A DNA stretch of 64,000 bases from Sarcomyxa edulis (Eukaryota > Basidiomycota > Agaricomycetes > Agaricales > Mycenaceae), in the NCBI GenBank assembly GCA_009761415.1, contig QUOL01000029.1:79543-143542 (forward strand), in the 5' to 3' direction. Positions 38,054-64,000 of this stretch are shown one piece after another. The notes under the pieces were generated by a model. That model was not told where the DNA came from and did not search any database. It saw only the letters and a list, made by a program, of their open reading frames with translations. Each line of letters opens with the position of its first letter. Positions within the stretch are counted from its first letter, which is position 1. A program made the position numbers and the translations under genes.

Positions 38054-38057
38054 TAAC

Positions 38058-38074
38058 TGGAGCCCACCGCGAGG
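38058..38074 (+). other. Primer binding site
   Basis: TGGAGCCCACCGCGAGG lies 4 nt after the 5' LTR. Its complement ends GGTGGGCTCCA. A U73 discriminator before CCA is a feature of eukaryotic tRNA-Cys, so tRNA-Cys is the probable primer. The same 17 nt follow the LTR at 50965. Confidence 0.7.
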
Positions 38075-38171
38075 GAGGTTGCTTCAATCATCATACAGTT
38101 GCGTCAGTCCGATCACCTCCCGATCTATTGAATAGCCGATTTCCCCCATACCCTTTCCCTAGTATCCTATC

Positions 38172-42872: not shown

Positions 42873-42894
42873 GCGGGACGTCTTACCGAGTTGA

Positions 42895-45800
42895 TTGCGA
42901 TCCGAGAAGAACTCCAGCACGGAATCTGCTACCTTTTGGAGATCTTATGCGGACGAAACCTCGGGGATGAAGTCGAGAGACGACGAATTTATCCCGGTAG
43001 CTTCCTTCATGACTTTCCCGTCAATCGTTCCGGCATCGTCACCGAGCATGAGTTTCGCTTTCTTGTTTCCCTCGTCGACCTCTTCCGAAAGCAAGGCTGC
43101 AATCGCGTGGCGGACGAAATATATAACACTCTTCGCATCTGCTTTCATGACTTCACAGCCATCCGGGCCATGTTGGACGATAAAGTATTCGACGCAGAAC
43201 ACACCAAATGGATGGGATTCGGTCTTGAACGCATTGACTAGAGGAGGGGTATCCAAAAGTACGTTTTGTAAATCTAAAAGGTCTTCGAGCGCTTACATCC
43301 CCTCATGGACGTCAAGCTCGTCAGGATTATCCCCCTCCCCACAGTTGTCATCTCCCTGGCCTTCCTCCATTTTCAAACCTCGTATTTGTCACTACCATGT
43401 ACAACAAACTCTGCCGACACCCACTGAGGCTCGAACTTCATCGTTCCCCGCGGACCCGGCAAAGACGACCGACAACCATTGCCGACTCGTAGTCTCGATG
43501 TCATCCTACTTACGCTTTACTCGTTCAAGCCTCTCTAACAATGTTACCTCATGTTGGCCATTGCGGTTCAGCTCGTACCTATATGCTTCCATTTCTTCCG
43601 GGTTTTCAAGTCTGCATACTGTCCTTACAAGTTGGGATTTAGCTTCTCGTAGCTCATTTTGTGTACCGAACCAATTTTCATTGAGTTCAACTAATTCGGT
43701 GCCCAGTTTGACTTCGAAGAATTCTTTCGGTCCCAATATTTGGCGCTGTTTTTCCGTAAGGCTATCGGACTCTGAATCGGAGTGTCCTCAGCTCGCAGAA
43801 GAGTCAGAGTCGGATGACAAAGAGGATACGGATGCCGAGGAAGAGGATGAAAGTGACCTTTACTTCTTATGCCCCGAGGATAACACAGCTGATGCTCAAG
43901 CATTCACCATGTACAAGAGAGTAGACAAGAAGGTCCACCCTGTATCAGGAACGTTCCCTCAGGAGGCGCAAGTTCGAAGAACTATTCCCGAAGATCCGTT
44001 ACTGTCACTTCCGTACTTAACAAAGACTCCTCCCGAGTTTGTGCCGACGGCCAAGTTGACTGAGGAACGACTTGCACAGTTAAACGTCAACGGAGATAAC
44101 TTTCTTTGGCCAGAGGAAGAGAAGCTGTTCAAACACATTATGTTGCTAAACGAAGAAGCAATCGCCTTCGAAGAGAAGGATCGAGGAACATTGAAAGAAT
44201 CTTATTTTTCCCCGTATATAATTCCGACAGTCCCACATACGCCTTGGGAATACAAAAACATTCCGATTCCGCCAGGAATAAAAGAGAAGGTACTTGACCT
44301 GTTGAAATCCAAGATAGAAGCGGGAGTCTATGAGCCAAGCCAGTCAGCCTATCGATCGAGATGGTTTTGCGTGTTGAAGAAGAATGGGAAGTTGAGAATT
44401 GTCCATGACCTTCAGCCATTAAACAAGGTCACAATCCGAGATGCAGGGCTACCACCAATTGTGGATGACTTTGTAGAAGGATTTGGTGGCCGACAATGCT
44501 ATACCGTCTTCGACCTATTCTGGGGATTTGATGCTCGAAAGACGCATCCTGATAGTCGTGATCTGACTGCATTCCTCACACCGCTTGGACTTCTTCGCAT
44601 CACATCATTGCCAATGGGATTTACGAACTCTCCTGCCGAATTTCAGAAATGTATGGTCTTTATTCTACAAGACGAAATCCCCCACATTGCACATATTTTC
44701 ATTGACGACTTACCTATCAAGGGACCCAAGACCCAATACCTAGACAATGAAGGAAAGCCGGAGACGCTAAAGGAGAATCCAGGAATCAGGCGCTTCATTT
44801 GGGAACACGCAGTTGATGTACACCGCATTATGCACAGAATCAAGTGTGCCGGTGCTACTTTTGCCCCCAAGAAAGCCCAGATTTGTCGCCCTGAAGTACT
44901 CATTGTTGGTCAGAAGTGCACACCTATGGGAAGGCTTCCAGATGATGATAAAGTTGAGAAGATTTTGAAATGGGGTCCGTTGACAAATCCACGAGAAGTC
45001 AGACGCTTTTTGGGATTATGCGGAACTGTGAGAATCTGGATCAAGGATTACTCGCTTCTGGTCAAACCTCTAACGGAACTGTATCGACAAGGATTCGAGT
45101 TTGAATGGAATGAGCGCCGGCAGAAAGCCTTTGACCACATCAAAACTTTGGTCGCGTCTGCACCAGCTCTTCGTGCCATTGACTATGAATCAGACCTTCC
45201 AGCATTTCTGTCGGTGGATTCAAGCTTCAAAGCTGTAGGCTTAATTCTGTCCCAGCTAGACGAACAAGGAAGAAGGCGACCAGCTAGATATGGATCAATT
45301 CCCATGAGCGAGCGAGAGTCCCGCTATTCTCAGCCAAAGCTAGAATTGTTTGGACTTTATCGAGCACTCCGACACTGGAGGCTATATCTGATTGGTCTCA
45401 AGAATTTCAATGTGGAAGTAGACGCGCAGTACATCAAGGGAATGCTCAATGAACCAGATCTTCAACCGAATGCGGCCATCAATCGCTGGATTCAAGGAAT
45501 CTTAATGTTTGATTTCAAACTCATTCATGTTCCTGCCACGCGGTTTAAAGGGCCTGATGCTTTATCTCGTAGAGAACCAACCTCTGATGAAGAAGTAGTT
45601 AGCGATGACGACTCTTGGCTTGACGACATTGCATTGCTTACTTTCATTCCCGATCACAAATTACCACCTTTTGATCTGTCAGCATCTCAAAGTCTCCCCT
45701 ATTCACCGCAGAGCCTTCCATCATGCCAAGTGAATGCCGCACGGATAGCTCAAGAACGATCTTTGCTGGACATCCAGAAATTTCTCAAGACTTTGGAAAC

Positions 45801-47127: not shown

Positions 47128-47318
47128 CTGGGTCTCTTGAATTCAGTCGGCTAGCACAAACCTCACTAGGTCCCCGGCTGCAAACAATGTCTTCTATCAA
47201 TCGCTCTCCCAATAAAGTTTAAGGGATCAGCACTCACCCTGTATAAAAACAAGTGCCTACGTGCAAAAGTTCGTCCCAGAAAACACCCTCTGTATCTAGT
47301 CTGGCAACGTTCCTTACC

Positions 47319-48032
47319 ATGAATTCTTCTGCTTTCATTAAAAAATCACTCGACCTGGGCGAGCATATCGAATTCGATCAGATCTCAATTTCGTCCACAC
47401 AGTACGAAGGATCGCTTCGCGACGACATCCCATACCCTGATCCCACTTTGCGATTGCCGTCCCCTGTATTTAACTGTGCAGGACGCGAACCAGGCGAGCT
47501 CCCAACTCACTTTATCATTTCCCATACACCTATCTCCGGCACAGAGCTTTTGCCCTTCACCATTTCCGTCAAATCCGCACGTCAACCCTCCTTCGTTTCC
47601 TACCGCTGTTCGACATACATACTTCAAGCAAGACTGGAGTCGCCATTGCTTCTTGGAGAATGGGTTCGTTTAGCAGAAACTCATGACATTGTTCAACTGG
47701 GAAGGATTGTGCATTACGGGATGGGAAAAGTTGTTGTCGAAGGACGTTCACATGGGGAGACAGGTCCGCCCAAAATCCTACTCATCTTTTCCAAAGACTG
47801 TATCTCCCTTCCTCGTCACGAATGGCTACGCCTTCGATACAAGCGCGCTTTGTGGTTGATGGGAAGGAAGATCCATCAAATCGGATCGGGAGAGTGGTTT
47901 ATGGAAACGGGGCAGCATATCAGGATAACGTACGTTCGGCATAGCATCAGGGTGAAGTTTATCTTTTGGGACTGGTTGCAGCGTATTCAGCAGCTTGTCG
48001 GAGGGAGAACTGGAAGCGCCGAGACAGTTTAG
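47319..48032 (+). CDS. Extra ORF between pol and the 3' LTR
   Basis: The ATG at 47319 in the context TTACCATGAATTC opens 237 aa ending in TAG just before the 3' LTR region. The position is that of env in errantiviruses, but no signal peptide or convincing transmembrane helix is seen, so it is not an evident envelope protein. Segments include NSSAFIKKSLDLGEHIEFDQ, TYILQARLESPLLLGEWVRL, VQLGRIVHYGMGKVVVEGRS and a basic-aromatic C-terminus (LRLRYKRALWLMGRKI, WDWLQRIQQLVGG). It is open and undamaged in a young element, which suggests it is used. The frame could be read 22 codons upstream from 47253. Confidence 0.6.
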   Translation: MNSSAFIKKSLDLGEHIEFDQISISSTQYEGSLRDDIPYPDPTLRLPSPVFNCAGREPGELPTHFIISHTPISGTELLPFTISVKSARQPSFVSYRCSTYILQARLESPLLLGEWVRLAETHDIVQLGRIVHYGMGKVVVEGRSHGETGPPKILLIFSKDCISLPRHEWLRLRYKRALWLMGRKIHQIGSGEWFMETGQHIRITYVRHSIRVKFIFWDWLQRIQQLVGGRTGSAETV

Positions 48033-48136
48033 GTGGCAGTGCATTTCCGCTTTGTAATTCGAAACTCGCAATTATTTCTTTCACCCCCGCTCCCATACTT
48101 GCAACTGGGGACAGTTGATTTATCGTTCCCCGCGGA

Positions 48137-49039
48137 TGTCATACCTCCAAAATGTTTGGAGTAAAGACATGGTTAAGGGTTAGCATGCTGCGTTTCAGAA
48201 TTCTAGTGGATTCTCCAGAGAAAGCCACATACTACCAAACGCGACTCGGGGATTCGAGAATTTAGATTTGGGTCAGATTATAAGGAATTTGTCTTGACAG
48301 TCTTATCAGGACTTCAGACGGCTTACGATGGGTTAGCAGTTTCTTTTCCTTTCATTTTACTTTTACTATAGTTATTCTTAGTGCAAGGAGGCTGTGACTA
48401 CACAGCCTTGCACAGCTTCAAAAGATCCGGTAACCACACAGCCTTGCATAGCCTCGCACAGGTTTTGCATAGCCTTTCCGCTGACTAAACGCCAGATTTG
48501 GAGCAGTATATAAAGGGACTCTTTTGATAACTTTTGGTCGTCCAACTTTCTACCCCCAAATAGTTAGTTACCTGCTAGTAGTAACCAGTGCTCCAATAAC
48601 ACTCTTATCTACTACCTTTTGCGCTATAAGCTAAGTTTGCTGTCTCCGTGACTATAGGTACTTAAGGAAAGTGCCTCTTGTTTGTTTCCCATCGTACTCA
48701 AGTTGATCCGAATATCAACTATCGCTCCGTGCATCCGATCAGCCCCGGACGACTGATCCTCCGTTATCTATTTCCGTTCAGGACCGTGTGCCTGATACTC
48801 CGTGAAGCTCTCCGTGACTTAGTCCTCCGTGGACTCTCAGAAGTACCAAGTTCAAGACTTGGTCTAGTTTTGTTGATTTCCGAAGGTTTGTTTCTTGGCG
48901 GTTGTCGTACTGACCATTTGTTGTTCTTCAGAGAATTACACACATTTGGTGATTCAAGTACACTCTCCCTCCAAATTCAAATAGTCCGAATAACGTATAT
49001 TCCGACTGCGCTTATATTCAACTGAATATTTGTGTGACA
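48137..49039 (+). repeat. 3' LTR of the gypsy element
   Basis: 903 bp. I found one difference from the 5' LTR (T at 48769 for G at 37783). It is followed by the target duplication ACGT. Confidence 0.95.
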
Positions 49040-50206
49040 ACGTGAATTTTGTGAGAGAACAGGCCCCCGCACCAAAGACACTGTCTCGAATCTGTCATCT
49101 CAGATGTTAACAACAGAAGCTACAAAGATAATGTAGTTCAACGTACATCTTGTCGAAATGCGTTGCGAATGCTCGAGCAGATTATTCTCAGAGTCGAAGC
49201 TAACATCTTCTCGCGGTGTGAGGATGCCAGCATCCCCAGCCAAGGAATCGACAACTATACAACAACCTACTCTTATGCGACTCCTCAGACATAGCTAACT
49301 ACAGAGATACTGGTGGCATCACCACAAACGACTTACTTTTCGAATGACCGGACACTGAAAGACACCAAGTACCCGCTACTTGACGGTTTCTCCCCGAAAG
49401 CGGCCTCTTCATCCACTCACCAAACGCTAACCCGCCTTCGGTCACGTCTCAGAACGTTTCGGAATACTTGAAATCACACACGAACAACTTCTCCGAAGGA
49501 AATCTACCGCCAGAACCCAATTCCCTATCGTTGTTTCACCTGACCGAAGGCCCAATGTACTCGATCACCTCTCCGCAGCCCCCTAGATCCTTCGGACAGA
49601 TCCCAAATCGTTTCAGCAGGTTCCCTTTCACCTCTAGAAGACCTCATCGAGAGATACTTCACCGACAAAACATTGCCACCAGTCGACATACCGCCAATGT
49701 GATGCTTGCTGCCCTGAGCTGTTCTTCCTATCAAATCGGACATATTCCCTTTACATTGTGATCTCAATTCACACCTTTCCATGCATCTGGACGCCTCGTT
49801 AAGACCTCCGTCCACCCTGACCAAGTGGTGCTACGGAATATTCTTCCCTCTGTGTTTATCACATGACACAGCACTTGTAAGCGAGGTATCGCCCGCTAAC
49901 AAAGACACTACAGGTCTCCGCCTAGCAACCCACATCAAATTCACTCTTCTCGGACAACTTTGGCCGTCGCATCTTGGAAAAATCTATCGGAAGCTCCCCA
50001 TCATCCTGCTCACTCGGACATGTTTCATCCCTTCACAAATTCACCTTGCAACGCTTTCAGAGAACACCTCAGGCCCTAACCTTTCACACTGAGCGAGGTT
50101 CGGACACATCAAAACCAATACCGGATCTGTTTCATCATTGGAGATCTCGGGGACCTTGGGATGGCACTCGGGGTGAAGAATTAGGCAAGGACAGGGAAGG
50201 AATTCA

Positions 50207-50215
50207 TATATAAAG
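50207..50215 (+). promoter_or_regulatory. TATA box in the left LTR
   Basis: TATATAAAG within the LTR, about 990 nt from its start. The mirror copy is in the right LTR near 53321-53329. Confidence 0.6.
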
Positions 50216-50427
50216 TAGGATAGGACATGGAGAACGGTAGATAGAACCAGTGTGGACGAGAACCAGAGGAACATACCCGAATCGACCAACTACCCAGTCA
50301 CTCTCTATAGGAATTCTATCTCTTTCTCATACTTCTGAAACCGAGACAAGGAACGATTACAGGAGTCGGTCAAAACAAGAGAAAAAGGACTTGATTCAGT
50401 CGGCAGTACCACTCCCGGAACAAAGGA

Positions 50428-50775
50428 AGCTCTCCGAAATCAGTCCAGAACTGTCCGAAACCCTCGAAGCTCTCCGAAATCAGTTCAAGAGCTGTCCGAA
50501 ACCTTCGATAGCTCTCCGAAGACGTTTTTCAGCTATACAAAGCATCGGTCGGCTCACCAAAAGCTGTCCGAGGCCCTCGTAGGTTCTCCAAGAACGAACT
50601 TATAGCTGTCCGAAGCCCTCGATAGCTCTCCGAAGACGTTTTATAAGCCGTCCAAAACATCGATCAGCTCTCCGAAAGCTGTCCGAGGCCTTCGTAGGTC
50701 TTCCAAGAACGAACCTATAGCTGTCCGAAGCCTCTAAACGGCCTACCGAGAACGAACCTACAAGTCCGAAGCTTA
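50428..50775 (+). repeat. Degenerate minisatellite in the LTR
   Basis: Repeated words AGCTCTCCGAA and AGCTGTCCGAA alternate with CCCTCGATAG- and AGACGTTTT-like spacers, forming a higher-order unit of roughly 40-45 nt or multiples. The mirror copy is at about 52758-53110. Confidence 0.75.
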
Positions 50776-50967
50776 CCTCACACCTCATCATCTCATACCC
50801 ACCTCACCACCGTTTTACGGACACATTATCCAAACACAAGTCATTGGGCATTAGGATTTCTCGCTACGTAAAATCCCCTCCGAGAAAACGTCACCTTACC
50901 CCCTAGAGGCGAACTATAGTTAGGAGTCTAGCACATCTACTCCTAGCGCCGCAGTCCTCATCACAAC

Positions 50968-50984
50968 TGGAGCCCACCGCGAGG
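50968..50984 (+). other. Primer binding site
   Basis: TGGAGCCCACCGCGAGG, 2 nt after the left LTR. It is the same 17 nt as at 38058, so both elements use the same tRNA primer, probably tRNA-Cys. Confidence 0.75.
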
Positions 50985-50995
50985 GGATTTAAAAG

Positions 50996-52633
50996 GTGTC
51001 TACTAGACGAGTTACCCGAGCCCAAACTCGTTTAGCTGAAGCAGAGCTTCAAGCCTTCTCTCAAACTTCCCGTATACCACATTTATCCGTCGAATATCCA
51101 CAAAGCGACCTTTCCGAAGAAACGACTCCGCCCGAATCGTCACCGCTATCGGACGTACCATCAATAAATCTTGATTGGTTGCCATCCCAAACACCTCCTT
51201 CCAACATAGATACCTCAGACGAAGAATTGCTCCCGCGTTCCGTTGAATCGGACACTATTTCAACAGAGGCCTCCCTTACGCCCTCAGAAGACTCGGTTAG
51301 CCTAGCCCAGGGAAACGAACCGTCAAACAGTTTACCAGCTGAACCCTTATCTCACCTCCAATTGGAGTCTCGAATCCTATCCATCCCTTCCCGCCAAACT
51401 TCAACACAAGACCAAACGCAGACTCAGCCGCCTCCTCCGTCTCAGATACCGTTACCATCGAATCGCATAACCCCTCGAATATCCCAACCCCGAATACAGA
51501 AAAACCTTCCAACAATGACGTCAAGACCACCGCCCACCCGGACCAGCAGGGACGCTCCAAAATTTGATGGTCTCGACGAATCTGTTACAAGGTATTTCGA
51601 AGACATAGACCAAGTATGCACGGCGGCTGGGAAAGCGTCGGATAAAGAGAAAATCGACATGGCTAGGTACTACCTTGGGGCGGAAGACGAATCGCTTTGG
51701 AAGGTGGTTACCGCAAAAGACTGGGACGCCTTCAAATCCGAAGTCCGGAAGCTTTATCCCGGATCAGACGAGAAAAAGAAATATACGCTCAATGATCTAG
51801 AGGTCTTGCTTGCAAAAGAAGCAGCAATACCGATTAACACCAAATCGGACTTTGGAAAATACCATCGATCTTTCACCAGGATATCGCATCATCTCAAAGA
51901 CCAAAACAAGATCTCTGCGAAAGAAGAGAATCGTCTCTACGTAAAAGGACTCCACCCGCAGTTCCTGGTCCAGCTAATGGCCCGACTAAAAATCAAGAAG
52001 CCCGACCAGGAACTCGACGAACCATATATGATCGATGACCTCTACAAGGAAGGCCAACATATCCTAGGAGGACAGGTTCTTTACAGCGGAACACAGACGA
52101 CTGGAATGGATCCGGTAGTTAAACAAGAAATAGACGAAATGTCGAGGGAAATAAAGGCGCTTAATAGGGAGTTGGCAGCAAGCATGAGTACGTTGGCAGC
52201 CACGTTATCAAACATGGGGGCAAACCAGGCCATGTCGTACAATAACCGTTACCAAGGCTATGTCCCGGCGCAGGGAAGGGCACCTAACCCATTCCTCGAT
52301 CGATCCCCTGTCCGAAGAACTCAAAACGGTCCAGGAAACGGCTCGGTTTGTGCGTTCTGTTCGGACACGTCTCACTTCATTCGAGATTGTCCGAAGGTCG
52401 CCGAATTTATCAGAGATGGGAAATGCATGCGAAACATGAACGGAAAAGTCGTACTTCCGAACGGAGCATGGGTTCCTTCAAATATAGAAGGAATCAACTT
52501 GGCTGCCAGAATCAACAGGTACCATGAAATGTATCCGGGGTCAATTATAAATGGCGTCAACTTTGTACGCTGTGATGAGGACTGCGGCGCTAGGAGTAGA
52601 TGGGCTAGACTCCTAACTATAGTTCGCCTCTAG
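50996..52633 (+). pseudogene. Truncated gag of the inverted-LTR element
   Basis: The frame runs from GTG TCT ACT at 50996, where an ATG would be expected at the start of STRRVTRAQTRLAEAE. The first true ATG is at 51514. It has a disordered Ser/Pro/Thr-rich N-terminus, then a capsid-like domain (DAPKFDGLDESVTRYFEDID, WDAFKSEVRKLYPGSDEKKK) and a CCHC knuckle, CAFCSDTSHFIRDC, near the end. After NGVNFVR at 52570 the frame passes into the inverted LTR and stops at 52633. The start is probably lost and the C-terminus and pol are missing. It belongs to the same broad gypsy Gag type as the neighbouring element but is clearly a different family. Confidence 0.82.
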
Positions 52634-54319
52634 GGGGTAAGGTGACGTTTTCTCGGAGGGGATTTTACGTAGCGAGAAATCCTAATGCCCAGTGACTTGT
52701 GTTTGGATAATGTGTTCGTATGGTGGTGAGGTGGGTATGAGATGATGAGGTGTAAGGTAAGCTTCGGACTTGTAGGATCGTTCTCGGTAGGCCGTTTAGA
52801 GGCTTCGGACAGCTATAGGTTCGATCTTGGAAAACCTACGAAGGCCTCGGACAGCTTTCGGAGAGCTGATCGATGCTTCGGACGGCTTATAATACGTCTT
52901 CGGAGAGCTATCGGGGGCTTCGGACAGCTATAAGTTCGATCTTGGAGAACCTACGAGGGCCTCGGACAGCTTTTGGTGAGCTGACCGATGCTTTGTATAG
53001 TTATAAAACGTCTTCGGAGAGCTATCGAAGGTTTCGGACAGCTCTGAACTGATTTCGGAGAGCTTTAAGGGTTTCGGACAGCTCTGGACTGATTTCGGAG
53101 AGCTTCCTTTGTTCCGGGAGTGGTACTGCCGACTGAATCAAGTCCTTTTTTTTCTCTTGTTTTGACCGACTCCTGTAATCGTTCCTTGTCTCGGTTTCAG
53201 AAGTATGAGAAAGAGATAGAATTCCTATAGAGAGTGACTGGGTAGTTGGTCGATTCGGGTATGTTCCTCTGGTTCTCGTCCACACTGGTTCTATCTACCG
53301 TTCTCCACGTCCTATCCTACTTTATATATGAATTCCTTCCCTGTCCTTGCCTAATTCTTCACCCCGAGTGCCATCCCAAGGTCCCCGAGATCTCCAATGA
53401 TGAAACAGATCCGGTATTGGTTTAGATGTGTCCGAACCTCGCTCAGTGTGAAAGGTTAGGGCCTGAGGTGTTTTCTGAAAGCGTTGCAAGGTGAATTTTG
53501 CGAAGGGATGAAACATGTCCGAGTGAGCAGGATGATGGGGAGCTTCCGATAGATTTTTCCAAGATGCGACGGCCAAAGTTGTCCGAGAAGAGTGAATTTG
53601 ATGTGGGTTGCTAGGCGGAGACCTGTAGTGTCTTTGTTAGCGGGCGATACCTCGCTTACAAGTGCTGTGTCATGTGATAAACACAAAGGGAAGAATATTC
53701 CGTAGCACCACTTGGTCAGGGTGGACGGAGGTCTTAACGAGGCGTCCAGACGCATGGAAAGGTGTGAATTGAGATCACAATGTAAAGGGAATATGTCCGA
53801 TTTGATAGGAAGAACAGCTCAGGGCAGCAAGCATCACATTGGCGGTATGTCGACTGGTGGCAATGTTTTATCGGTGAAGTATCTCTCGATGAGGTCTTCT
53901 AGAGGTGAAAGGGAGCCTGCTGAAACGATTTGGGATCTGTCCGAAGGATCTAGGGGGCTGCGGAGAGGTGATCGAGTACATTGGGCCTTCGGTCAGGTGA
54001 AACGACGATAGGGAATTGGGTTCTGGCGGTAGATTTCCTTCGGAGAAGTTGTTCGTGTGTGATTTCAGGTATTCCAAAACGTTCTGAGACGTGACCGAAG
54101 GCGGGTTAGCGTTTCGTGAGTGGATGAAGAGGCCGCTTTCGGGGAGGAACCGTCAAGTAGCGGGTACTTGGTGTCTTTCAGTGTCCGGTCATTCGAAAAG
54201 TAAGTCGTTTGTGGTAATACCACCAGTGTCTCTGTAGTTAGCTATGTCTGGGGAGTCGCATAAGAGTAGGTTGTTGTATAGTTGTCGATTCCTTGGCTGG
54301 GGATGCTGGCATCCTCACA
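52571..54319 (-). repeat. Right LTR (reverse) of the inverted pair
   Basis: Reverse complement of the left LTR, the same 1749-bp length, with a small number of differences (for example one extra Lys-codon-sized insertion in a poly-A tract at about 53151, balanced elsewhere). Confidence 0.88.
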
Positions 54320-54339
54320 CTTCCTCCTAACTTTTAAAT

Positions 54340-54426: not shown

Positions 54427-54433
54427 TATAAAT
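54427..54433 (+). promoter_or_regulatory. TATA box of array gene 1
   Basis: TATAAAT, 52 nt before the ATG at 54479. Confidence 0.55.
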
Positions 54434-54478
54434 TCCAAGGTTAAGACGGCCAGAGCTTTCCTGAAAGCAACAAGCCAA

Positions 54479-55417
54479 ATGGATCCCATAGCAAAAGAAC
54501 TCTTCTTTACGCGCTGCCTCGATCTAGACGGGATAGATGGCGATATTACGATGGCAACTTTCCTCGGATACCTGCGTAACAATATCCGTCCCATGGTTCA
54601 CCTAGTTGTTAGCTGCATTTTTCAGGATGCAGTGGCGGACGTTCTCCTTCCGGAGTTCTCGAGTCACGGTGTATACACGTTGAGAAAGCACGTTAAAATC
54701 TTGTGCCAGCACATGGTGAGTGCGTGTGCGCCTTTCAGGGGGCCCGTGCTAATTGCGAAGGTCAAGGTATTCATGCTCAGACTTAGATGGGTACTGAAGG
54801 GGAGGTGCATGGACGATACCACGGAGCCGTTTCCCAAGGAAGCAGTGACCGCCGTTTACCAGGTGCAGCGGTGCGTCCACGTCGTAGGGTTTTCCGGGGA
54901 TCAGGACGAGGACGAGGCACATAAGATCGACGTTATCTTGTACTTCATAGAAGAATACGCCCGCCGATCGACATTCGGCGTCGCTTTCGATTACATCGAG
55001 GCGGACCCGCGTGGTCGGTTCCATGCGCATGCCGTGTTGAAGAAGCATCCATACAGCGGTCCCAGGGTACATCGAGATGGTACGATTAGTACGGACAGGG
55101 GCAACAGCCTCGAGGGGGAAGAAAATCCGGCTAACAACGAAGACGAAGGCATATCCGTCATAAGTATTGCAACGGACGACGGGGACGAAGAAATGGAGGT
55201 GGCCGAGGTAGAAAGGGCCTTGTCCGGTAAGAATTCTGACACTTTAGCGGTGCGGCAACGAGCTGATCGGAGAGGTACAGTCCAGCCACTCGCAAGCTTG
55301 GCAACACACGGGGCATTTCGCCTGCTTTTGGAGATGTTATCCGAAGAGGAGAGGAACGGTTTGATTGGCGGGGCGGCGATTATCGAACAGGGACTAAACA
55401 ATTTGTCGGGGGCATGA
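54479..55417 (+). CDS. Array gene 1: novel paralogous family, 297 aa
   Basis: Not a family I recognise. Exon 1 (54479-54715, 79 codons) ends LCQHM. A 45-nt GTGAGT..CGAAG intron follows. It is in frame and stop-free, so a 312-aa retained form is possible. Exon 2 is 54761-55417. The family features are FLGYLRNNIRPMV (28-40), the phase-0 intron, then VKVFMLRLRWV and EPFPKEAV about 22 residues downstream. The copy-specific C-terminus is acidic (GEENPANNEDEG..GDEEMEVAEVE) and ends with a helical LLLEMLSEEERNGLIGG segment. It has no signal peptide and no long transmembrane helix. It is the longest member and sits first after the inverted-LTR structure. Confidence 0.65.
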   Translation: MDPIAKELFFTRCLDLDGIDGDITMATFLGYLRNNIRPMVHLVVSCIFQDAVADVLLPEFSSHGVYTLRKHVKILCQHMVSACAPFRGPVLIAKVKVFMLRLRWVLKGRCMDDTTEPFPKEAVTAVYQVQRCVHVVGFSGDQDEDEAHKIDVILYFIEEYARRSTFGVAFDYIEADPRGRFHAHAVLKKHPYSGPRVHRDGTISTDRGNSLEGEENPANNEDEGISVISIATDDGDEEMEVAEVERALSGKNSDTLAVRQRADRRGTVQPLASLATHGAFRLLLEMLSEEERNGLIGGAAIIEQGLNNLSGA

Positions 55418-55477
55418 GGCGGCAAGAAGAGGGAAGGGTTCGGAGAGGTGATCGAGGGCATGCAGTCATCATGTACA

Positions 55478-55483
55478 TATAAA
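55478..55483 (+). promoter_or_regulatory. TATA box of array gene 2
   Basis: CATATAAACG, 35 nt before the ATG at 55513. Confidence 0.55.
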
Positions 55484-55512
55484 CGACGAGTCCTTTCGTG
55501 TTGAAAATCGAA

Positions 55513-56098
55513 ATGCCTGCCCGCAGTATGCAAATGGCTCGCGAGAGACTCTGCGACTACTTCATGACGCTGAACGTCCCGTCCTTCATTCGACCCGTCT
55601 TCTATCCGCACGAGGGCTTCGATGGATTCTTCCGCAAACGCCTTCGTATGATGTTCGGTGTCATCCAGGCGACGCTTCCCCATAGGGTGACAGCATTTCC
55701 CGATGACACCGATAGCGTTATCGGGCAGTATACGCTGTCGAGGCGGCTTATGCGGTTTTTCGTCGAGAACGTTGTACGGGCTTCCACCGTTTTTCAGCGG
55801 GGCAACGCAGAGATACTAAAAAAATCCTTCTGCGCAGGAACTCATCGTTGCATACCGTCAGCGGGCCAGGACCGATGCCAACGCCGCCGAATTTAAAATT
55901 CCTTCAGAGGTATCCCGTATGATGGAGTTCAGTCTTATCGTTTATGACAAGGTCGGATTTCACGGGGACTGGGCCCTCAGCAGCGTCGGTCAGAGGAGGG
56001 AAATGCTTCAGTCACTAAAAGATGAGGCCGACGTTAACGCTTCATTGACTGGCGGGGCAAAGGAGTATCCCGAATTTGAGGACCTGGTGTTCTGGTAA
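55513..56098 (+). CDS. Array gene 2: novel paralogous family, 173 aa
   Basis: Exon 1 (55513-55773, 87 codons) contains EGFDGFFRKRLRMMFGV at 34-50 and ends FFVENV. The intron is 55774-55837 (GTACGG..GCGCAG, 64 nt, phase 0). Exon 2 (55838-56098) begins ELIVAYRQRARTD and has KIPSEVSRMMEF about 20 residues in, matching gene 3 (VVPSEALRLASM) over some 70 residues by eye. It ends PEFEDLVFW. The stop TAA overlaps a possible GTAAGC donor, but splicing there to the next acceptor would create TGA at once. Function unknown. Confidence 0.68.
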
Positions 56099-56342
56099 GC
56101 AGGCGCCGTCGGTCTCGTTCTTTGGGCCCCTCAGAGGGATACTAATAGTCGGAAATTCGCATTTCAGAACGCACGCGTAGCGGGGAAGCTTTCCTGGATG
56201 TGACCGAGGGGGTTTTTGTCGTCGTTGGTACTTTAACGGATAAACACTCCTTTCGCGTGCCGCGTTTGAATATCTTGTAGTTTATGGAATGCACTGTCGG
56301 TTCGGAGGGCAACGACGGTCTCGGGCAGCCTCCCAACCTCCT
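56099..56342. other. Spacer
   Basis: Nothing recognisable apart from the promoter of the following small gene. Confidence 0.5.
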
Positions 56343-56349
56343 TTATAAA
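56343..56349 (+). promoter_or_regulatory. TATA box of the small gene in the array
   Basis: TTTATAAAGGG, only 16-22 nt before the possible ATGs at 56358 and 56365. Confidence 0.45.
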
Positions 56350-56364
56350 GGGTACCGATGTCCG

Positions 56365-56726
56365 ATGATTCCACCCGCTGTGCGCAGACATTTGAATCGC
56401 GGACAGTTCGTAACTCCGTCAGCGGCTCTTGATGAGAGGAAAGTTCAGAGGGGAGGCGAGTGAGATGAGAACGGAGAGAGGTTATTAATGCTTTCAGAGC
56501 TTTTCTCCTTTACAATTTCGCTATATCGCTCAGTGGCCTGGTCATCATTTCGTTCTTCCGTAGCCTCGCCGATATGCGATGTCAGGATGATCTTCTCGTC
56601 CCGTTCAATAACTCGGCCGGCGCAAGATGCTGTTCTCTTCTTCAAGATGATGCAGTTGCATTTCTACAGCGCTCAAAGCCGACAGCCGTCAAGCGCCAGT
56701 GGCTTCATGAAGTCATGGCCGTTTAG
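56365..56726 (+). CDS. Small possible relic or cassette gene in the array, 107 aa
   Basis: An ATG at 56365, then a 38-nt intron (56460-56497, GTGAGA..TTTCAG, short for a fungus), then an exon to TAG at 56724-56726. The protein starts MIPPAVRRHLNRGQFVTPSA and continues AFLLYNFAISLSGLVIISFF (hydrophobic, perhaps a membrane helix) and ends KRQWLHEVMAV. The VTPSAAL word recalls the IPSE block of the array genes, but the upstream LRPMM exon is absent. It could be a decayed member or an unrelated small gene. Confidence 0.35.
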
Positions 56727-57111
56727 ATCGAGGTGGCTTGCGTCCTGATCGTCGTTGTTCTTACGGCGCAGTTGAGACTGTGCGGGTTAATACTTGTGCG
56801 GGTGATGTGACCGCGATCTTGCGAAATCTTTGCGAAGGAACGAGACACGGCGAAGTGTATCAGGTGAGGCAAGGACCTGCGACAATAGTCGAAAAGATGG
56901 TCCCAGGGTAGCGGCGCGACGTGGCGGCCAGCTCGTGTTCTTTTGCATGTGGCATTCGCAATCGTTCCGTGAGCATCTATACCGAAGAACATGCGTCTTT
57001 ACTGCTTCTGATAAGGCACGGTCCGGAAAATCCAACGGTTAACAGTGGCTGCACGGAGTCCGTTCGGACACCTCTTATCGGTCCGAGACGTCAGTCCTAA
57101 GTCCGATGAGG
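56727..57111. other. Spacer
   Basis: No supported gene. Short frames only. Confidence 0.45.
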
Positions 57112-57117
57112 TATAAA
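57112..57117 (+). promoter_or_regulatory. TATA box of array gene 3
   Basis: GGTATAAAGAA, 49 nt before the ATG at 57161. Confidence 0.6.
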
Positions 57118-57160
57118 GAACGCCAGCTGGCGCAGGATAGCCATCGTTATTCCAGCCAAA

Positions 57161-57756
57161 ATGTCGCATGTCGTTAGTTCATCGTTTACTCAAGCTCTCC
57201 GAGACGAGTTTTTGTCGTACGCTCATCCTCCTGAAGTTCTTGCCGGGGATTTCGCTCCTACCGAGGGCTTTACAAATTTCCTTCGGTTTCGCCTCCGCCC
57301 TATGATGGAGATCGTCGAGCGGGGGTACGCGGCTTATCTTATAACGAGTTCCCCGAGAGACACCGTTGAACCAATCATATGGAGCGAGACGAAAGGCTGG
57401 TTCCGCATCGTGTTGGATCATTTGGTAGGCGTCCGTGGTTCACTCGGTGAGCTTCGGAGTGTTAACCTTACGTCTTCTAGGATGCCATTCTACGGTTTAG
57501 GGATAGGGTGACGGCAATTGGCCGAGGAGACGAGGCCGTGGTTCCGTCAGAAGCGTTGCGCCTCGCAAGCATGGTGCAGCTATTCCTTATCCATCACGGA
57601 GTTGAGCTCGGGTACGATGAGGATGTACTTGTGAAGAGGAAGGATTTAACGAAGGAGTTCCTTTGGTCTATCGTCCCTGTAATGCACCGAGAGGCAGTTG
57701 CCGTGGAATTTCCGGAGTTCGTGATACGGTTGGCAGGGGAGGGTACGGGCAAGTAG
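57161..57756 (+). CDS. Array gene 3: novel paralogous family, 179 aa
   Basis: Exon 1 (57161-57424, 88 codons) has EGFTNFLRFRLRPMMEIV at 35-52 and ends WFRIVLDHL. The intron is 57425-57480 (GTAGGC..TTCTAG, 56 nt, phase 0). Exon 2 (57481-57756) starts DAILRFRDRVTAI, then VVPSEALRLASM about 20 residues in, and ends RLAGEGTGK. Without splicing the frame stops at 57511, so the intron is needed. This copy gives the clearest alignment to gene 2 in both exons (EGF..F.R.RLR.M, and PSE..R). No known domain is recognised. Confidence 0.7.
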
Positions 57757-57794
57757 AAGGGGTGTCCGATAGCTGAATAGCGCGATATTTTTAG

Positions 57795-57800
57795 TATAAA
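57795..57800 (+). promoter_or_regulatory. TATA box of array gene 4
   Basis: AGTATAAAGAG, 47 nt before the ATG at 57842. Confidence 0.6.
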
Positions 57801-57841
57801 GAGGGTGAATCAATTCCTCCGTACAGGTCACCGCAGAGCCC

Positions 57842-58559
57842 ATGAAAATTATGGAACCCCTACACCAAGTCCTTTTGAACACTCTTGCCCAAGAGGCAGC
57901 AACGTTCGATATCCTTGATCGTGACGGAATGATTCACTATCTCAGGTGCCTCCTGCGCCCCGCTGTCGGCCTCGTTGCCGATTTTATATTCCGTGAACTC
58001 GGGCCCGATGGCTACTTCGTAGCTTTAACTGGTCGCGAGAGGGTTCCCTACTACTGCAATGCGCAAATCGTGTTGCTCCTCGCGGTACGTTGGTCTAAAC
58101 TCGACCCTTAGCGATCTCATTGTTAACGGGTTTTCACTTGATCGGTAAAAGGTCCATTTCCACAGCCAGTGGCAGGAGCTGAACAAGCAGGACAGGCGTT
58201 TATACATGATTCCGTCCGAGATGAATAGAACGATTAGCCATTTGCGCTTGATTTGTCGGGCTGTCCGAATTCAGCCAGCAAGCCCCATTCATTGGGAGGT
58301 CGAAGCCGTCCGAGCTCTTACCGAGCTTAGCATACGCGCCCTGGCGGCTTACGCGTCGGCTGAAGATGCCTTCGATTGGCCGGAGTACGAGAAGCCCGGG
58401 GATGCCGCGTTGGAAAGCGCGATGACCAGATCGATCCGTCTCGATCTCCTCGAAAGGGTCGTACCTAAGCGCGTTGTCGTAGTCGAGGGGGAGTCCGAAG
58501 GTGCAGGATATAGCGACGCGGAGGACTGGCCAGGGTCGGAGGAGGAAACGACGGAGTAA
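57842..58559 (+). CDS. Array gene 4: novel paralogous family, 216 aa
   Basis: Exon 1 (57842-58084, 81 codons) has GMIHYLRCLLRPAVGLV at 29-45 and ends IVLLLA. The intron is 58085-58151 (GTACGT..TAAAAG, 67 nt, phase 0). Exon 2 (58152-58559) begins VHFHSQWQELNKQ, carries MIPSEMNRTISH about 19 residues in, and ends in an acidic tail (YSDAEDWPGSEEETTE). The acidic C-terminus resembles that of gene 1. No signal peptide. Function unknown. Confidence 0.7.
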
Positions 58560-58603
58560 AGTAACGCTCCCAGAATCATATGCCACTTATTGTAGTCTGC
58601 ATA

Positions 58604-58609
58604 TATAAA
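58604..58609 (+). promoter_or_regulatory. TATA box of array gene 5
   Basis: CATATATAAACC, 57 nt before the ATG at 58661. Confidence 0.6.
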
Positions 58610-58660
58610 CCTCCCCGAATCGTTTGCTCTGATCCTTAAGTCAGTAAAGTTCCATCAACG

Positions 58661-59596
58661 ATGTCCTTTATTCTCCGTTTGTCTGCAAATCGCTTTCCCG
58701 AAAATCCCCAGGATCCCGACCTCGAAAATGAGAGGTCTCCGACCACCATCTGGTCTCGGTCAATTCGTAGCCTCCTAGGCATCGTTCATCTCTCCGTAAA
58801 TGGGAGGTGTCCGACGGACGTTCCTCTCGAGGAAAGGCTCTGGGTCAGGACCCTCCTCACCCGGATCGTCAATTACGTAGTAAGCGGCTCGCTTGTTTTT
58901 CCTTCATCGTTCCTCTTTCAACATCGTCCGTCCAGCATCAAGCTATGAAGCTCCGAGCCTCCGAAGCCATTAAATCAGGTTCTTGGGATACCATTCCGAT
59001 TCCCGCTCAAGCCACTACTACCGTCGCCATGCTCGAGTTCTTTCTGAAGAACTTTGGTTTCGAGGGGGACTACGTTGCGGTCAACGTTAGGAACGTTGGG
59101 TATCTTTTATCGTCGGTGAAGAGCGAGATGGTTGCCCAGGCGCGTTTTACTTATTTCTTGGTTCTCATCCTTCGTTGATTTATCTCTTTTCGTCCTTTTC
59201 TAGGTCGGATACGTCGGAACCGCCCTGGATTTCGATGGATTTGAGTCGTCCGATGCGTACAACGTGTACGGCGTGCTTCCCGAAATGAAGCAGCAGCAAG
59301 TTAATGACCTGCTCAGATTGCGGGCGGCTTTCGTTCCCAATCCTATTCTTCCTGCTCCTCAATATCCTCTTGTCCCCTTCGTCGCAAGGTTTCCCGTGAA
59401 AGAGGGCTTTGAAGAGGTCCGTCTTCACGGAGACGTTCCCGATCCTCGTCTCGGAGGTCTCCACCAAGTTCATTTCGGCCCTGGAGCTTTCGGACAGGTA
59501 GACCCTCGGAACGCTGCGACGCGTGGGAGAGGTCGCGGAGGGGCAAGGGCTAATCGTCGAGGAGCTGGAGCGGTGCCTGATACTACCATTCTGTAG
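58661..59596 (+). CDS. Array gene 5: novel paralogous family with an RG-rich tail, about 258 aa
   Basis: Exon 1 (58661-58879, 73 codons) has TTIWSRSIRSLLGIV at 28-42 and ends RIVNYV. Intron 1 (58880-58950, GTAAGC..ATGAAG, phase 0) is at the family position. Exon 2 (58951-59115) has TIPIPAQATTTVAMLEFF. A second intron (59116-59203, GTGAAG..TTCTAG) is specific to this member. Its donor could instead be the GTTGCC at 59131. Exon 3 (59204-59596) starts VGYVGTALDFDGFESSD and ends with RGRGRGGARANRRGAG, an RGG-like basic tail often used in nucleic-acid binding. That tail makes this member different from the acidic-tailed genes 1 and 4. Confidence 0.62.
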
Positions 59597-60296
59597 ACCG
59601 TCCGATGAGTTTCCGATTCCTTGTCTCTTGTAAAATAAATGCCTGATAACAGGCGCATAATTCGTTCATAATTTTGCATAGTGTGAGACCCAGCGTCTCG
59701 GTCTCCTTGTAAATCTGTAAAACGTCGTGAGTTGCATACTTTTATCATATCAGCGCATAATTGGGTTCGGTCTGCGTCAGTAGATCCGCTGGCCAGCCAG
59801 ATCTACCGTCTCCGAACCCCGCATAGTCGTTTTCTTCCAATTTCTTTCGATCGTTTGTCGTCCGTGGTCTTTTCGCAGTATTTCGTCACTGTGTACAGGA
59901 AAGCCGTCGCTCTCTATCCGTTCCGTTACGAGGTTATAAGCCCCATGCGCCAACCATACTATTCTTTCTTGCTTGTCTCGTATTTCGGTTCTTCGTATTT
60001 CTTCCTTTCGTGTTCTTCCAATTTAACGTTCGTATTTTGACTTCCAGGTTTTTTTTTTTTTTTTTTTTTTTTGCTATTAGTGCGTAGCAGCATCCTTTTC
60101 CTCTTCTCCTCATAGACCGCCATCCTTCTTTTTGTGAGCGGTTGTTTACCAAAGACCTTATCGTTTCGGCAATCGATTCGGCTTCTTTTCCACGTGGCTG
60201 GAGATACCCGGGCTGAGATTCTTTCTAGGAGAGGTCTTTTATTCTCGAAACCTCTTTTATTGACGGTATCTTCTTCGTCCATCAGGGTTCTTAGAT
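59597..60296. other. Spacer with a poly-T tract
   Basis: No supported gene. A T run of about 24 nt lies at about 60050-60072. Confidence 0.5.
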
Positions 60297-61783
60297 ATGT
60301 CGTCCACCACTGGTGCCTTTTCAGGGAAGTTTAATAGGTCGATCACGGGTTCGCGATATTCCTTCATCGTCCATAGTTAGTTTGATAACAAGCTTTTTGT
60401 TCAGATATTCTGGATGGCACCGTCGCACAGCCTCTCTTGTCCGCCCTTTCTGGTGATACTGATTTGCGAACCCTCTCCGCTGCTCAGCGAAGCGCCCTTA
60501 TATCGACTAGACGAATTCCCGGTTCGCTTTTCGGTGTTTACAGGCAATTAATGCCTGATCGTATCACGAAGTCGTCGAAAGAATTGAGGTCCATGATGTT
60601 CACCCTTTTATCGATCGGTTATCCTAGGGCTCCGCCAGCCTATTTCCACAATTTTCCGGAATTGAATTCGTCCGTTATAAAGTTCATTAATAACTTTCCC
60701 TACGTTCCCGACTTTCTTCTCGAGGCCATTTCGTATAATCTTCCGCGCACCGTGGCCGTTGCTAATTTCGATCCTGAGTTTTCGAGCGACGAGTTGGCCG
60801 ATTCTTGTAAGTACTCTTCTCGCGCCCGTAAGCCGGTCATTTAAAGTTGCCCGCGTCCGAATGGTCGTAGCTGCTAGCGATGTCGAGCCCCAAAGTGACT
60901 CTCCGGGGAGGGAACGGACCAGCCAACCTACCCATCGGTTGAGAAAAGTTACCGGCTTCCCCGTACCCAAAATCACCGTCCTCCCAGCAGTTGAAGCCTA
61001 TCGAACACTTTCTTCAGCGAAACAGGATAGAGCATCCAGAAAGAACCGCCTCTTTTTTATCCGAGCCAGAGTCAGTCTTTCCCCGTATCTCATCCTATGT
61101 TTTTCAAGTCATTGACCCCATCTTTTACCCTCTTCAAGGACTACCGATGTTCCGAATGTATTCGCAATGACGTTTCTTGCCCCGGTTTCAGGTCTCAAGC
61201 ATGCGACTTCTGTGAAGGGAAGCAGTCCGCATGCAATCTCGTAGGTGGAGAGGATAACCTCAGTGAGCCTTCTCCCTGTAGTGACGGACACAACTGCAAC
61301 CATAGAAATTCTTTCCCCTTTGTAGGCGAATTAATGGCTCGCGCTACCGGCTGCATCAAGGTCCTAAAAAGGCCCGAAGTCGTTTCCAGCGAGGCGTCCG
61401 GTGAGATTAAGACGTCGGCGAACCCGACTGCTAGTTCGTCAGCCCTCCCCCTCCTTCGTAACGTGGCTTCTGGCTCCCTTTCGCGTATCGACCCCAGACG
61501 TCCAGTCATTCGCCTGTCTCCGGAGCACCATCCTCGGCCACGATCTGATTCCAGTATCGCACGCAGCGAGAAAATGGATGCCATCGTTCGCAATTCTAGG
61601 TCCCGTCTTCTCGACGGTGCCAGTGATTCGTCCGCTTTTGGCGTGCTAAGCCCCGTTGTCGTTGATCATATGACCCCGATTATTGATCAAGTAATGAAGG
61701 AAATTGGTTTGGCGTATCGCGTCTTGATCGAGGATGCTATCGATGAGGCGGACGAGGAGGAGATTGCTATGGCGTTCTTGTAG
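60297..61783 (+). CDS. Spliced gene with a Zn2Cys6-like cysteine cluster, convergent to a gypsy pol
   Basis: Three exons are firm: about 60406-60806, 60847-61070 and 61139-61783. They are joined by GTAAGT..TAAAG and GTCAGT..TCAAG introns in frame. A short first exon with ATG at 60297 (MSSTT) is tentative. Exon A carries LRTLSAAQRSALISTRRIPG, SKELRSMMFTLLSIG and a hydrophobic FLLEAISYNLP. Exon C begins DYRCSECIRNDVSCPGF and continues ACDFCEGKQSAC, spacing C-x2-C-x6-C-x7-C-x2-C-x6-C. This is the arrangement of fungal binuclear zinc clusters, although only Gly-Lys-Gln rather than many basic residues follows. The C-terminus is acidic (DEADEEEIAMAFL). It faces the truncated gypsy pol and probably lies inside that element, antisense to it. 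Confidence 0.6.
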
Positions 61784-61973
61784 CACAAGTCCACCTTCTC
61801 GTATTTTCTTGTTTGTTTTTGATAACCCGTCGCAGATTTCCGACTTTGTACGCCCCCCCCCTTTTCTCGGTGGACACCACCTTTAATGTAGAAATATGAA
61901 TCGATTTCTTGTTAAATAAGCCAGATGAATATAAGGTGAAATTTAAGAAGTCTTTATCGTTGCCTCGCCGGCC

Positions 61974-64000
61974 CTACGTCCTCTTTTGCCCCGTTTGTTC
62001 TGGCGTTAACGTCGTCCCTTCGTGTTCCGGTTTCCTGGGGAACTGCCAAAGTCTCGTCCTGTATGTTCCTGGTAGCGAGTCGTCCCCTGGCTCCACCAAG
62101 CTGTATTCGTCTGGTGTATCGTCGTCCGCCATCTCGTTCAGCTGTTTCGTAGTTTTACCTACTAAAGTTGTGACTTGGATAGTGATTTCGTTCCTCCTGA
62201 AATATGGTACCAGTCGGTGCGCCGCAAATCGATGTTCCGCGATCGCACCATTGACTTCGGAGAGTATATAACTTCCCGATTTCGTTTGCCGGACAACAAC
62301 CATCGGACCTATATATCGGGGCTTCATCTTGTTATTCAGTTCCTTCTCGATCCTTGTGTTTCTGATGAGTACGAGCCTCCCCGGGGCGAACTTGAAATCG
62401 TAAATCTGTCCTTCATACTTCTTCAGGAATTGCTCTGCCAACTCGAGCCTAGCCTTGTACTTGTCTCTCTGTATTTTCGATAGCTCCTTTTCCCGTCTTT
62501 GAAGCTTCATCGCTCTTCGCGTTATGAGTTCTCCGAAGTCCATTTCTTCGTCGATAAACGGGTGCATGTATGTTGACTGTTCCAAATCAAACGGATGTAT
62601 CGCCTGGACACCGTGCGCTATGTAATATGGCGAATACCCCGTGGATTTCTGAATTGTAATCCGCTCGGCCCAAAATATGGCATGCGCTGCTTTCGGCCAA
62701 ATTGATTGATTCCCATCGCACGACTTAATGAGCGATTCTCGGACATCGTAGTGCTTTCGCTCGATGACCCCCTGCGCTTGCGAATTATAACCCGAAATTC
62801 GTATATGATTGATTCCATATTGCTTTTTGAGGTGATCGACCGCTTTGACCCAAGGTTTCCCATTATCCGTGACGATTTCCATTATACTTCCCCATCTGCA
62901 TAGGACATCTTCGAAGATGAAACTGGCCAGATTAACAGCGCTTTCATTTTTCAGCATTCTCCACTCCGGATATGAGCTGAGCGAACATCGTCCATGAGCA
63001 ATCACATGAAAGCCATCGACTGTAGGAAGGTGCATTGTGTCCATGTAGATTTTCCCAAATAGCGGAAACGGAACCGCCACAGTCGGAGGAATGTGGATCT
63101 TCGAACTGTTTCTGAGTTGACATTGGTGACACGTCCTGACGAACCAGGACACATCTCTGCTCATGCTTGGCCACCAAAACCTATCCATCAGCCTGACCTT
63201 CGTTGTCCACGTTGCTTTATGCCCGAATTTATCATGAAGTTCGGCCATTATTTGAATCCTCTTTTCCGGGTGGGAGTACGACTTTGTGTTTCAGCTGCCT
63301 GTCCTTTCTCCATAATTGCCCATTTAGGACAAAGAAGTGAGCTGCTTTCTTCATAAACGCTTTGAATTGTTTATCGGACAATCCTTCGGGCCTGTTTGCC
63401 GTTTCAAGGTACTCCGTTATTTGTACGAGTTCTTCGTCTTGTTTGATGGCGAGAGTCGACTGAGGAATAACCACGTTCGGGACAACTTCGCCAATAAGGA
63501 CTGCCGATACTTCTCTTCTTCGGCCAGGTAACGAGGCGAAATATGCCTTTGCTATGGCTTCGGGAAAATCGCGGTCATTTATCATTAATCGATGAGGCGG
63601 CACCGTATCCAATATTGACCGAGCTCTGTTTTCGTTCCAGTTTAGCATTTCGACCGAAAATCCGCATGCCCTATCGATCCATTCTTCGACGTCGTCTTCT
63701 TCTTCCGAGTCTTCCGGGGCCTTTCGTCGTCTAGATAGACCGTCCGCCGGCCCATCGCCGTTCCTGGAATGTGCTCTAGTTTGAACGTGAACAGCTGGAT
63801 ACTGCTATCCATTCTATTGATAGCCGCATTAGGTTGTATATCCGGATTATTTAGCATCCCCTTTGATATATTTCGCATCTGTTCGGACCGTCAGGTTTTT
63901 TAACCCGACTATGTATAACCTATAAGCCCTGAGGGCCCTGAATAAGCCATAGAGTTCGATTTTTGCCTGGGAGTATCCTTGCTCGCGTTCATTCCATGTA
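61974..64000 (-). mobile_element. Ty3/gypsy pol fragment (RNase H-integrase), frameshifted, runs off the window
   Basis: Reading on the minus strand from the right edge. RNase H end: QGYSQAKIELYGLFRALRAY, then DAKYIKGMLNNPDIQPNAAI. An integrase finger follows (LHDKFGHK..CHQC) and a core with Asp in YMDTMHLP, Asp in VTDNGKPW and Glu in GVIERKHYD. It ends with a GPY/F module (YIGPMVVVRQTKSGSYILSE) and a tail stopping at 61974. The frame shifts near 63735 (HIPGTAM to GPADGLSRR) and near 63280 (VVLPP to EKRIQIMAELHD), each by one base. It is therefore inactive as it stands. The reverse transcriptase and 5' LTR lie beyond the window. No 3' LTR could be recognised without its partner. Confidence 0.85.

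Follow-up and report, generated by a model that had tools for sequence, protein, structure and literature searches.

The window analysed here comprises the final 64 kb of contig QUOL01000029.1 of Sarcomyxa edulis (assembly GCA_009761415.1, positions 79,543 to 143,542; 64,000 nucleotides), and searches covered the genome of 35.65 Mb in 40 contigs. Near the end of the window lies an array of five intron-bearing genes, g1 to g5, all on the plus strand, and beyond it a sixth gene (gene 6). As described below, the array is very probably an accessory gene cluster carried backwards within a long terminal repeat (LTR) retrotransposon. The five starts lie at 54479, 55513, 57161, 57842 and 58661, and the first exons of 79, 87, 88, 81 and 73 codons given by a previous sequence-only reading are borne out.

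The gene array

The product of g1 (54479..55417; exons 54479-54715 and 54767-55417) has 295 amino acids with an acidic stretch near the C-terminus. The products of g2 (55513..56098; exons 55513-55773 and 55838-56098) and g3 (57161..57756; exons 57161-57424 and 57481-57756) have 173 and 179 amino acids, respectively, and that of g4 (57842..58559; exons 57842-58084 and 58152-58559) has 216 with an acidic C-terminus. The earlier gene models were revised for g5 (58661..59596), whose first intron is best placed at 58880-58935 and which has a second intron with a putative donor at ~59130; the exons are then 58661-58879, 58936-~59130 and 59204-59596, giving ~268 amino acids with an RGG-like C-terminus. 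Gene 6, which was added to the models, is a multi-exon gene on the same strand with approximate limits of ~60297-61783. It is situated between the array and pol, antisense to the latter.

Each of the five starts is preceded by a TATA box on the plus strand (54427..54432, 55478..55483, 57112..57117, 57795..57800 and 58602..58609), and every one of these boxes is conserved in 11 of 11 aligned copies. This alignment comprises the intact arrays, including that of the window; C38_1734, where the array is split, and the first array of C8_23m, which is cut, are left out. The TATAWA motifs lie 52, 35, 49, 47 and 59 nt upstream of the ATGs of g1 to g5. The boxes noted earlier are thus present at all five starts, the range of 35–57 nt given for them extending in fact to 35–59 nt. 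In 2000 single-base shuffles of the array no more than two of the five starts acquired such a motif.

In an alignment made blind to introns, intron 1 follows the same column in four of the five genes and lies six columns off in g4; the earlier observation of an intron at an equivalent place holds. The sequence motifs reported before and after this intron were found as described. The g1 intron measures 51 nt and the frame stays open across it. Among the copies, the g2 intron varies in length (63, 64, 65, 66 or 68 nt) and so does that of g4 (67 or 68 nt), with the exon frames kept.

The sequence-only reading had proposed that the genes be spliced, aligned and used as profiles. When each gene was compared with the profile of the other four, it ranked first out of 2001 sequences (itself and 2000 shuffles), with expectation values (E) of 2e-5, 4e-8 and 2e-8 for g1, g2 and g3. 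The values for g4 and g5 were only 0.03 and 0.02, so that their paralogy leans mainly on the common intron position and gene order. BLASTP among the ten gene pairs returned g2-g3 as the sole strong pair (5e-10).

The carrier element and its forms

The array is flanked by parts of a retrotransposon in the opposite orientation. On one side lies an LTR (52571..54319, minus strand), its borders defined from the window and 11 fetched regions, with the 4-bp flank ACGC beside it at 52567-52570. On the other side, beyond gene 6, lies pol (61974..64000, minus strand), represented by the integrase part (Integrase_H2C2, E 2.4e-17) and sequence upstream of it and running off the contig end. The window thus shows the 3' part only of the array-bearing copy, the LTR being its 3' LTR. 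This copy was inserted into the gag of another, plus-oriented copy, of which the 5' LTR (49216..50965) and gag (50993..52570, with a CCHC-like knuckle below the Pfam cut-off) are seen up to the interruption at 52570. The inverted repeat at 49216-54320 consists of the LTRs of these two copies, face to face.

A 1,001-base piece around g1 gave 30 matches in the genome at 97-100% identity, 29 of them full length or nearly so and one partial. Twelve array copies, namely that of the window and those of the 11 fetched regions, were read at length. Every array start in these copies directly adjoins an oppositely oriented LTR, and an LTR directly adjoins 22 of the 29 full-length matches. Two of these neighbours come from the copies read; the other 20 were assigned by position, the LTR match lying 80 bases from the query start, with the best 40 of 89 LTR candidates scored. 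In all seven copies in which both LTRs are visible, the array is internal to one and the same LTR retrotransposon family, which settles in favour of 'element-borne accessory genes' one of the two origins that had been suggested. As a separate observation, at least eight of the 30 array matches are no more than 25 kb from the end of a contig (on C7, C8, C11, C22, C25 and C34), and several are nested or paired; these locations may be centromeric, subtelomeric or assembly breaks at repeats.

Two forms of the element were found. The long form (four copies, 17,254 to 17,514 bases) begins, in element sense, with an LTR; gag, which includes the protease, and pol, which includes RNase H and integrase, come next, followed by the array backwards and the second LTR, an order common to all four copies. 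Its pol frames of 1270-1280 amino acids are open on the strand opposite the array. In one copy gag-asp_proteas, RT_RNaseH and Integrase_H2C2 scored above cut-off in that order, and neither RVT nor rve was found at E 0.01 in two pol pieces, which are cut where fetched stretches meet. The gag frame of a long copy (L030:6087-8717) also gave a weak DUF4100 match ahead of the protease (E 3e-5, below cut-off). The short form (three copies, 11,674 to 11,708 bases) has an LTR at each end and, between them, a 2.6-kb block that includes a gene-6-like gene, followed by the backward array; probes from gag and the 3' part of pol found no match in any of the three copies.

Four of the seven LTR pairs are free of mismatches, from which recent transposition is deduced: C40_1076m (1747/1747 identical) and C1_2006, C34_398 and C6_871 (each 1748/1748 identical, with two gap positions). 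The remaining pairs are C36_2245m (1635/1636), C11_671 (1621/1628, with 115 gap positions) and C12_2616m (1706/1747). The LTRs start with TG and end with CA. Target-site duplications (TSDs) of 4 bp are exact in five of the seven copies with both LTRs; the flanks of C12_2616m differ by one base and those of C11_671 are unmatched. The four bases flanking the outer LTR ends conform to NCGN in element sense (for example GCGT, ACGG, ACGC and CCGT) at 17 of 17 distinguishable insertions, and the integrase seems to favour a CpG centre at the target.

Selection, gene 6 and relatives of the array

Segregating sites in the spliced models of g1 to g5 were distributed as 14:12:90 over codon positions 1:2:3 in ten copies, a set without the old copy C12_2616m, the source of all three coding indels that were observed. 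Nonsynonymous changes numbered 28 and synonymous ones 89, where the same mutation spectrum predicts 80 and 37, corresponding to a ratio of nonsynonymous to synonymous divergence (omega) of 0.146. In every one of the 11 exons, half or more of the changes are at position 3, and no premature stop occurs in the array genes of the ten copies. Because of the 14:12:90 distribution and an omega of about 0.15, g1 to g5 can be taken as translated genes under selection. In the four long copies omega was 0.08, 0, 0.09, 0.23 and 0.11 for g1 to g5, as compared with 0.074 for gag and 0.082 for pol. The array omega amounted to 0.157 in four copies with a short-type gene 6 and to 0.148 when C12_2616m was included; two of these four were seen with both LTRs, while C40_1097 and C8_23m were so classed by gene 6. 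The pol genes of C36 and C1 display one gap and one stop on C40 coordinates, yet their own frames of 1280 amino acids are open, and the gap and stop are taken as an alignment effect. Judged by these substitution patterns, the array genes are under purifying selection like gag and pol.

Gene 6 behaves differently from its surroundings, both at 59923-61900 of the window and in the 2.6-kb block of short copies. Two versions of it occur in the long form, 77-83% identical at the DNA level (500-base windows), whereas its flanks in the long copies are 93-97% (pol), 97-99% (gag) and 97-99.6% (array) identical. In the short form the gene 6 block is 83-87% identical between versions, or 70-71% where C40_1097, divergent at its far end, is compared; the arrays carried by these copies are 97.7-98.7% identical. 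The drop in identity starts close to the start codon, within ~20 bases of it. When the genome was searched with one version, 17 matches at 77-100% identity were listed, two of them covering less than half of the query. For the first exon of the short-form versions, synonymous divergence was 0.36-1.10 and omega 0.02-0.09; the version of C38_1734, 99.8% identical to that of C12_2616m, was omitted from the comparison. In view of this synonymous divergence, the gene 6 versions are either old or silently fast-diverging. Positive selection on the whole protein was considered and rejected, omega being 0.0-0.20 among the short-form versions and 0.21 and 0.36 for the long-form versions. Two readings remain: recombination may homogenise the flanks and halt at the diverged gene, or silent divergence may itself be favoured, for instance to evade homology-dependent silencing.

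The cysteines of the Zn(2)-Cys(6) cluster are spaced C-x2-C-x6-C-x5-12-C-x2-C-x6-8-C. Both versions of gene 6 that were read contain the pattern C-x2-C-x6-C-x7-C-x2-C-x6-C, and by this spacing its product would be zinc-cluster-like.

Each of the five genes was also used to search the genome itself (E ≤ 1, best candidates scored). Besides copies of this array, g1 to g4 each matched eight further loci and g5 nine, at 27-54% identity. Eight of these loci form a second family (family B), known here from match positions alone, with the five genes in the same order and on one strand in all eight arrays. A gap of ~40-75 nt is found at the place of intron 1 in g1, g2, g4 and g5, and the g3 matches stop short. 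The g2 and g3 matches are ~1.1 kb apart, and the spacing is similar in the present array, where the spacer (56099..57160, plus strand) measures 1.06 kb. This spacer shows no coding periodicity in the aligned copies. It carries an orphan TATA box at 56344, present in 10 of 11 copies, and a tract of low diversity at ~56340-56700.

A 216-amino acid RNase H query located a pol of 80-91% identity on the opposite strand, ~6.5 kb past g5, in three of the eight family B arrays (C12, C16 at 312 kb and C23). At the arrays of C2, C4 and C34 the distance to such a pol is 13-29 kb, with the relative orientation unchanged; the arrays of C9 and C16 at 6 kb are truncated by the start of their contigs. A pol at the same distance of ~6.5 kb and on the opposite strand also accompanies the ninth g5 match, a g5-only locus on C5. 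For the pols of this class on C15 and on C16 at 14 kb, the listed matches include no array on the side where one would be expected. If pol and array co-descended, the array proteins evolve much faster than pol; the alternative is an exchange of modules between lineages, as gene 6 suggests. The description of the family as 'old or fast-evolving' applies between the two families; within the present one omega is low. The own-genome matches listed for g1 to g5 comprise nothing beyond this array, family B and the lone g5-like locus on C5, which speaks against the 'rapidly diversifying host cluster' offered earlier as the second possible origin.

Searches of 5.8 billion proteins returned six matches to a query designated A1 (among the best 7998 candidates) and one to g1 (among 1008 candidates). 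All seven are nameless and are relatives or pieces of g1, g2, g4 and g5. A g1 relative shows 74% identity, a g2 relative of 188 amino acids (sources ncbi and lgn) is 78-79% identical across the exons, and there are pieces of g2, g4 and g5. No relative of g3 was present among the candidates scored, nor any match to gene 6 among the best 7995 candidates. The close relatives suggest that related genomes or strains carry such genes, the family appearing otherwise orphan in the collections searched; the designation 'novel family' holds to the extent of these libraries.

The window contains one further element of the gypsy type (37680-49025), with gag and pol frames at 38163-42872 and 42895-47127 and an RNase H of 52% identity. 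A 119-amino acid frame repeated at 37680 and 48666 probably marks its LTRs, and a 261-amino acid sense frame at 47247 follows its pol. A profile search detected no antisense array in this element.

Proposed function of the array and comparison with known systems

From the sequence we consider it almost certain that the array belongs to an element of the order described, present in recent copies, most of them with TSDs, and kept under purifying selection. With high, if lesser, confidence we interpret the array as a set of accessory genes belonging to an LTR retrotransposon whose gene order is that of Gypsy. Read in its own sense, the element runs from the 5' LTR through gag and pol to the oppositely directed gene 6, g5, g4, g3, g2 and g1 and ends with the 3' LTR.

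Introns lying in the sense of the genomic RNA are lost in the retroelement cycle, whereas those of backward genes are invisible to the spliceosome and persist. In the mechanism we propose, RNA polymerase II would transcribe each array gene in the direction opposite to the genomic RNA, starting at that gene's TATA promoter. There would be at least five independent antisense transcription units, and the introns would be spliced in these mRNAs only. In the genomic RNA they would be reversed, hence unrecognised, and would survive reverse transcription; the 'rigid' introns are expected because of the antisense orientation. The proteins would then serve the element family in trans, probably within the nucleus, by controlling element expression or by counteracting silencing. 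By analogy such a regulatory or anti-silencing function is a possibility to which we give somewhat more than one chance in three only tentatively. More speculative still is the full scheme, in which a six-gene antisense cassette, five members of which arose by repeated duplication of a founder, would manage the element family in trans and countermand host silencing. The cassette would be selfish, the gag-pol-less form (LTRs and cassette) spreading on gag and pol of full elements, and the gene 6 versions may mark sub-lineages or escape silencing.

A number of observations weigh against this interpretation. No Pfam match above cut-off exists for g1 to g5 and no NCBIfam match for the array proteins, the best PDB sequence match of which is at E 0.06. 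In the comparison of folds proposed earlier, AlphaFold models, computed from exon translations entered as separate rows under the g2 relative and not from a spliced protein, were all-helical and of low confidence (pLDDT, the predicted local distance difference test, 43 with 8 rows and 52 with 12 rows), and Foldseek against the PDB gave 42 matches at E ≤ 10 and none at E ≤ 0.001. The Zn_clus profile (PF00172) scored 13 bits against a cut-off of 21, in one of the two gene 6 versions. As to the introns, those of g1, g3 and g5 are constant in length across the copies, and family B has an uninterrupted reading frame across the site of the intron in g1 and, for the majority of copies, in g4. Splicing of g1 is not demanded by its frame and is putative. 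Genome-wide, one TGA was read in g1 of two copies, and the C25 and C12 copies are broken. Finally, the short- and long-type arrays show no fixed differences, so recombination with long copies, and not selection within short ones, could keep the short-form arrays intact.

Of the other explanations, the one that survives best is that the array proteins are structural, an env-like or capsid-like set of particle parts, and not regulators. We regard it as unlikely. Env-like genes do sit between pol and the 3' LTR, and the low-confidence models are all-helical, but the antisense orientation with separate promoters is unlike env, the libraries searched hold no match to known structural families, and the short form would have lost gag yet kept other particle genes.

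Capture of five intron-containing host genes that are now carried passively appears improbable. Introns and separate promoters do resemble those of ordinary nuclear genes, and paralogous tandem arrays are common in hosts. However, no host-like copy is listed at E ≤ 1, and the lone g5-like locus on C5 adjoins a related pol; the same gene order in a second family at 27-54% identity excludes a recent capture, and the selection is like that on gag and pol. The idea that the antisense transcripts matter rather than the proteins, the RNA regulating or masking the genomic RNA, has still less in its favour: antisense transcription has been proposed as regulatory for plant elements (PMC7264820, in the sections available), but the codon counts and an omega of about 0.15 indicate selection on proteins. 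That the array constitutes a mobile element of its own, nested within the retrotransposon, is very improbable, for although it occurs both with and without gag-pol, its borders in the window and the fetched copies are the 3' LTR and gene 6 unless cut by another insertion, whole copies end at the LTRs, and no array-only insertion was met in the 12 copies read (7 of the 29 full-length matches are without a listed LTR neighbour).

Retrotransposons have for years been seen to carry antisense accessory genes to which no function was assigned, and among these the cluster described here, with five paralogues and a sixth gene that have putative promoters, introns and a clear signature of selection, is extreme. 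A natural deletion form that drops gag-pol and keeps the array splits what is needed for copying from what is needed by the family, and the role of the array thereby becomes testable gene by gene. The cluster also shows a route by which intron-bearing genes persist in a retroelement.

We favour regulation or anti-silencing because some plant antisense proteins are nuclear and because VANC is known as an anti-silencing family. The VANDAL elements that encode it are DNA transposons, unlike the present LTR element. According to the parts of the reports available, the VANC proteins of Arabidopsis VANDALs are anti-silencing proteins of a rapidly diversifying family (PMC10398659, PMC5735166), and they illustrate what trans-acting proteins that diversify on a mobile element may accomplish.

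By position and orientation the array is of the antisense additional open reading frame (aORF-3R) kind. A fungal gene in such a position, brtn, was reportedly described by Zhao et al. in 2011. In Boty / BcGypsy1 of Botrytis cinerea it sits downstream of pol, ahead of the 3' LTR, in an orientation opposite to gag-pol, as far as the accessible text of later papers describes it (PMC7264820, PMC8365987). Boty thus resembles the present element as a fungal LTR retrotransposon with an extra antisense sequence at that site; compared by these partial descriptions it has one gene, whereas here there are six, including five paralogues with introns and their own TATA boxes. In the portions of the open-licence literature searched, no fungal retrotransposon is described with an antisense array of several intron-bearing genes, nor was an array of five intron-bearing paralogues retained in a form lacking gag-pol encountered there.

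In plants, antisense additional reading frames are reported for Grande (gene23), RIRE2, Retand and PvRetro13, and some of the proteins localise to the nucleus (PMC7264820, sections available). The position, the orientation and a conservation comparable to that of the other element proteins are shared with the array. The word 'intron' does not occur in the main text of PMC7264820 or PMC11963269. The Retand protein is given a TRP28 domain in the part of PMC11963269 available, unlike g1 to g5, which have no Pfam domain above cut-off and in which neither TRP28 nor SMC homology was detected at that threshold; homology of this sort does not define the aORF-3R kind. As with the non-autonomous Retand elements, judged from the same part of that source, recently active copies without some of the coding domains exist; unlike these, the short form with no gag or pol match keeps the whole antisense array (PMC11963269). 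The present element departs from the known members of the aORF-3R kind in gene number, paralogy, introns, promoters and a gag-pol-less form that retains the array.

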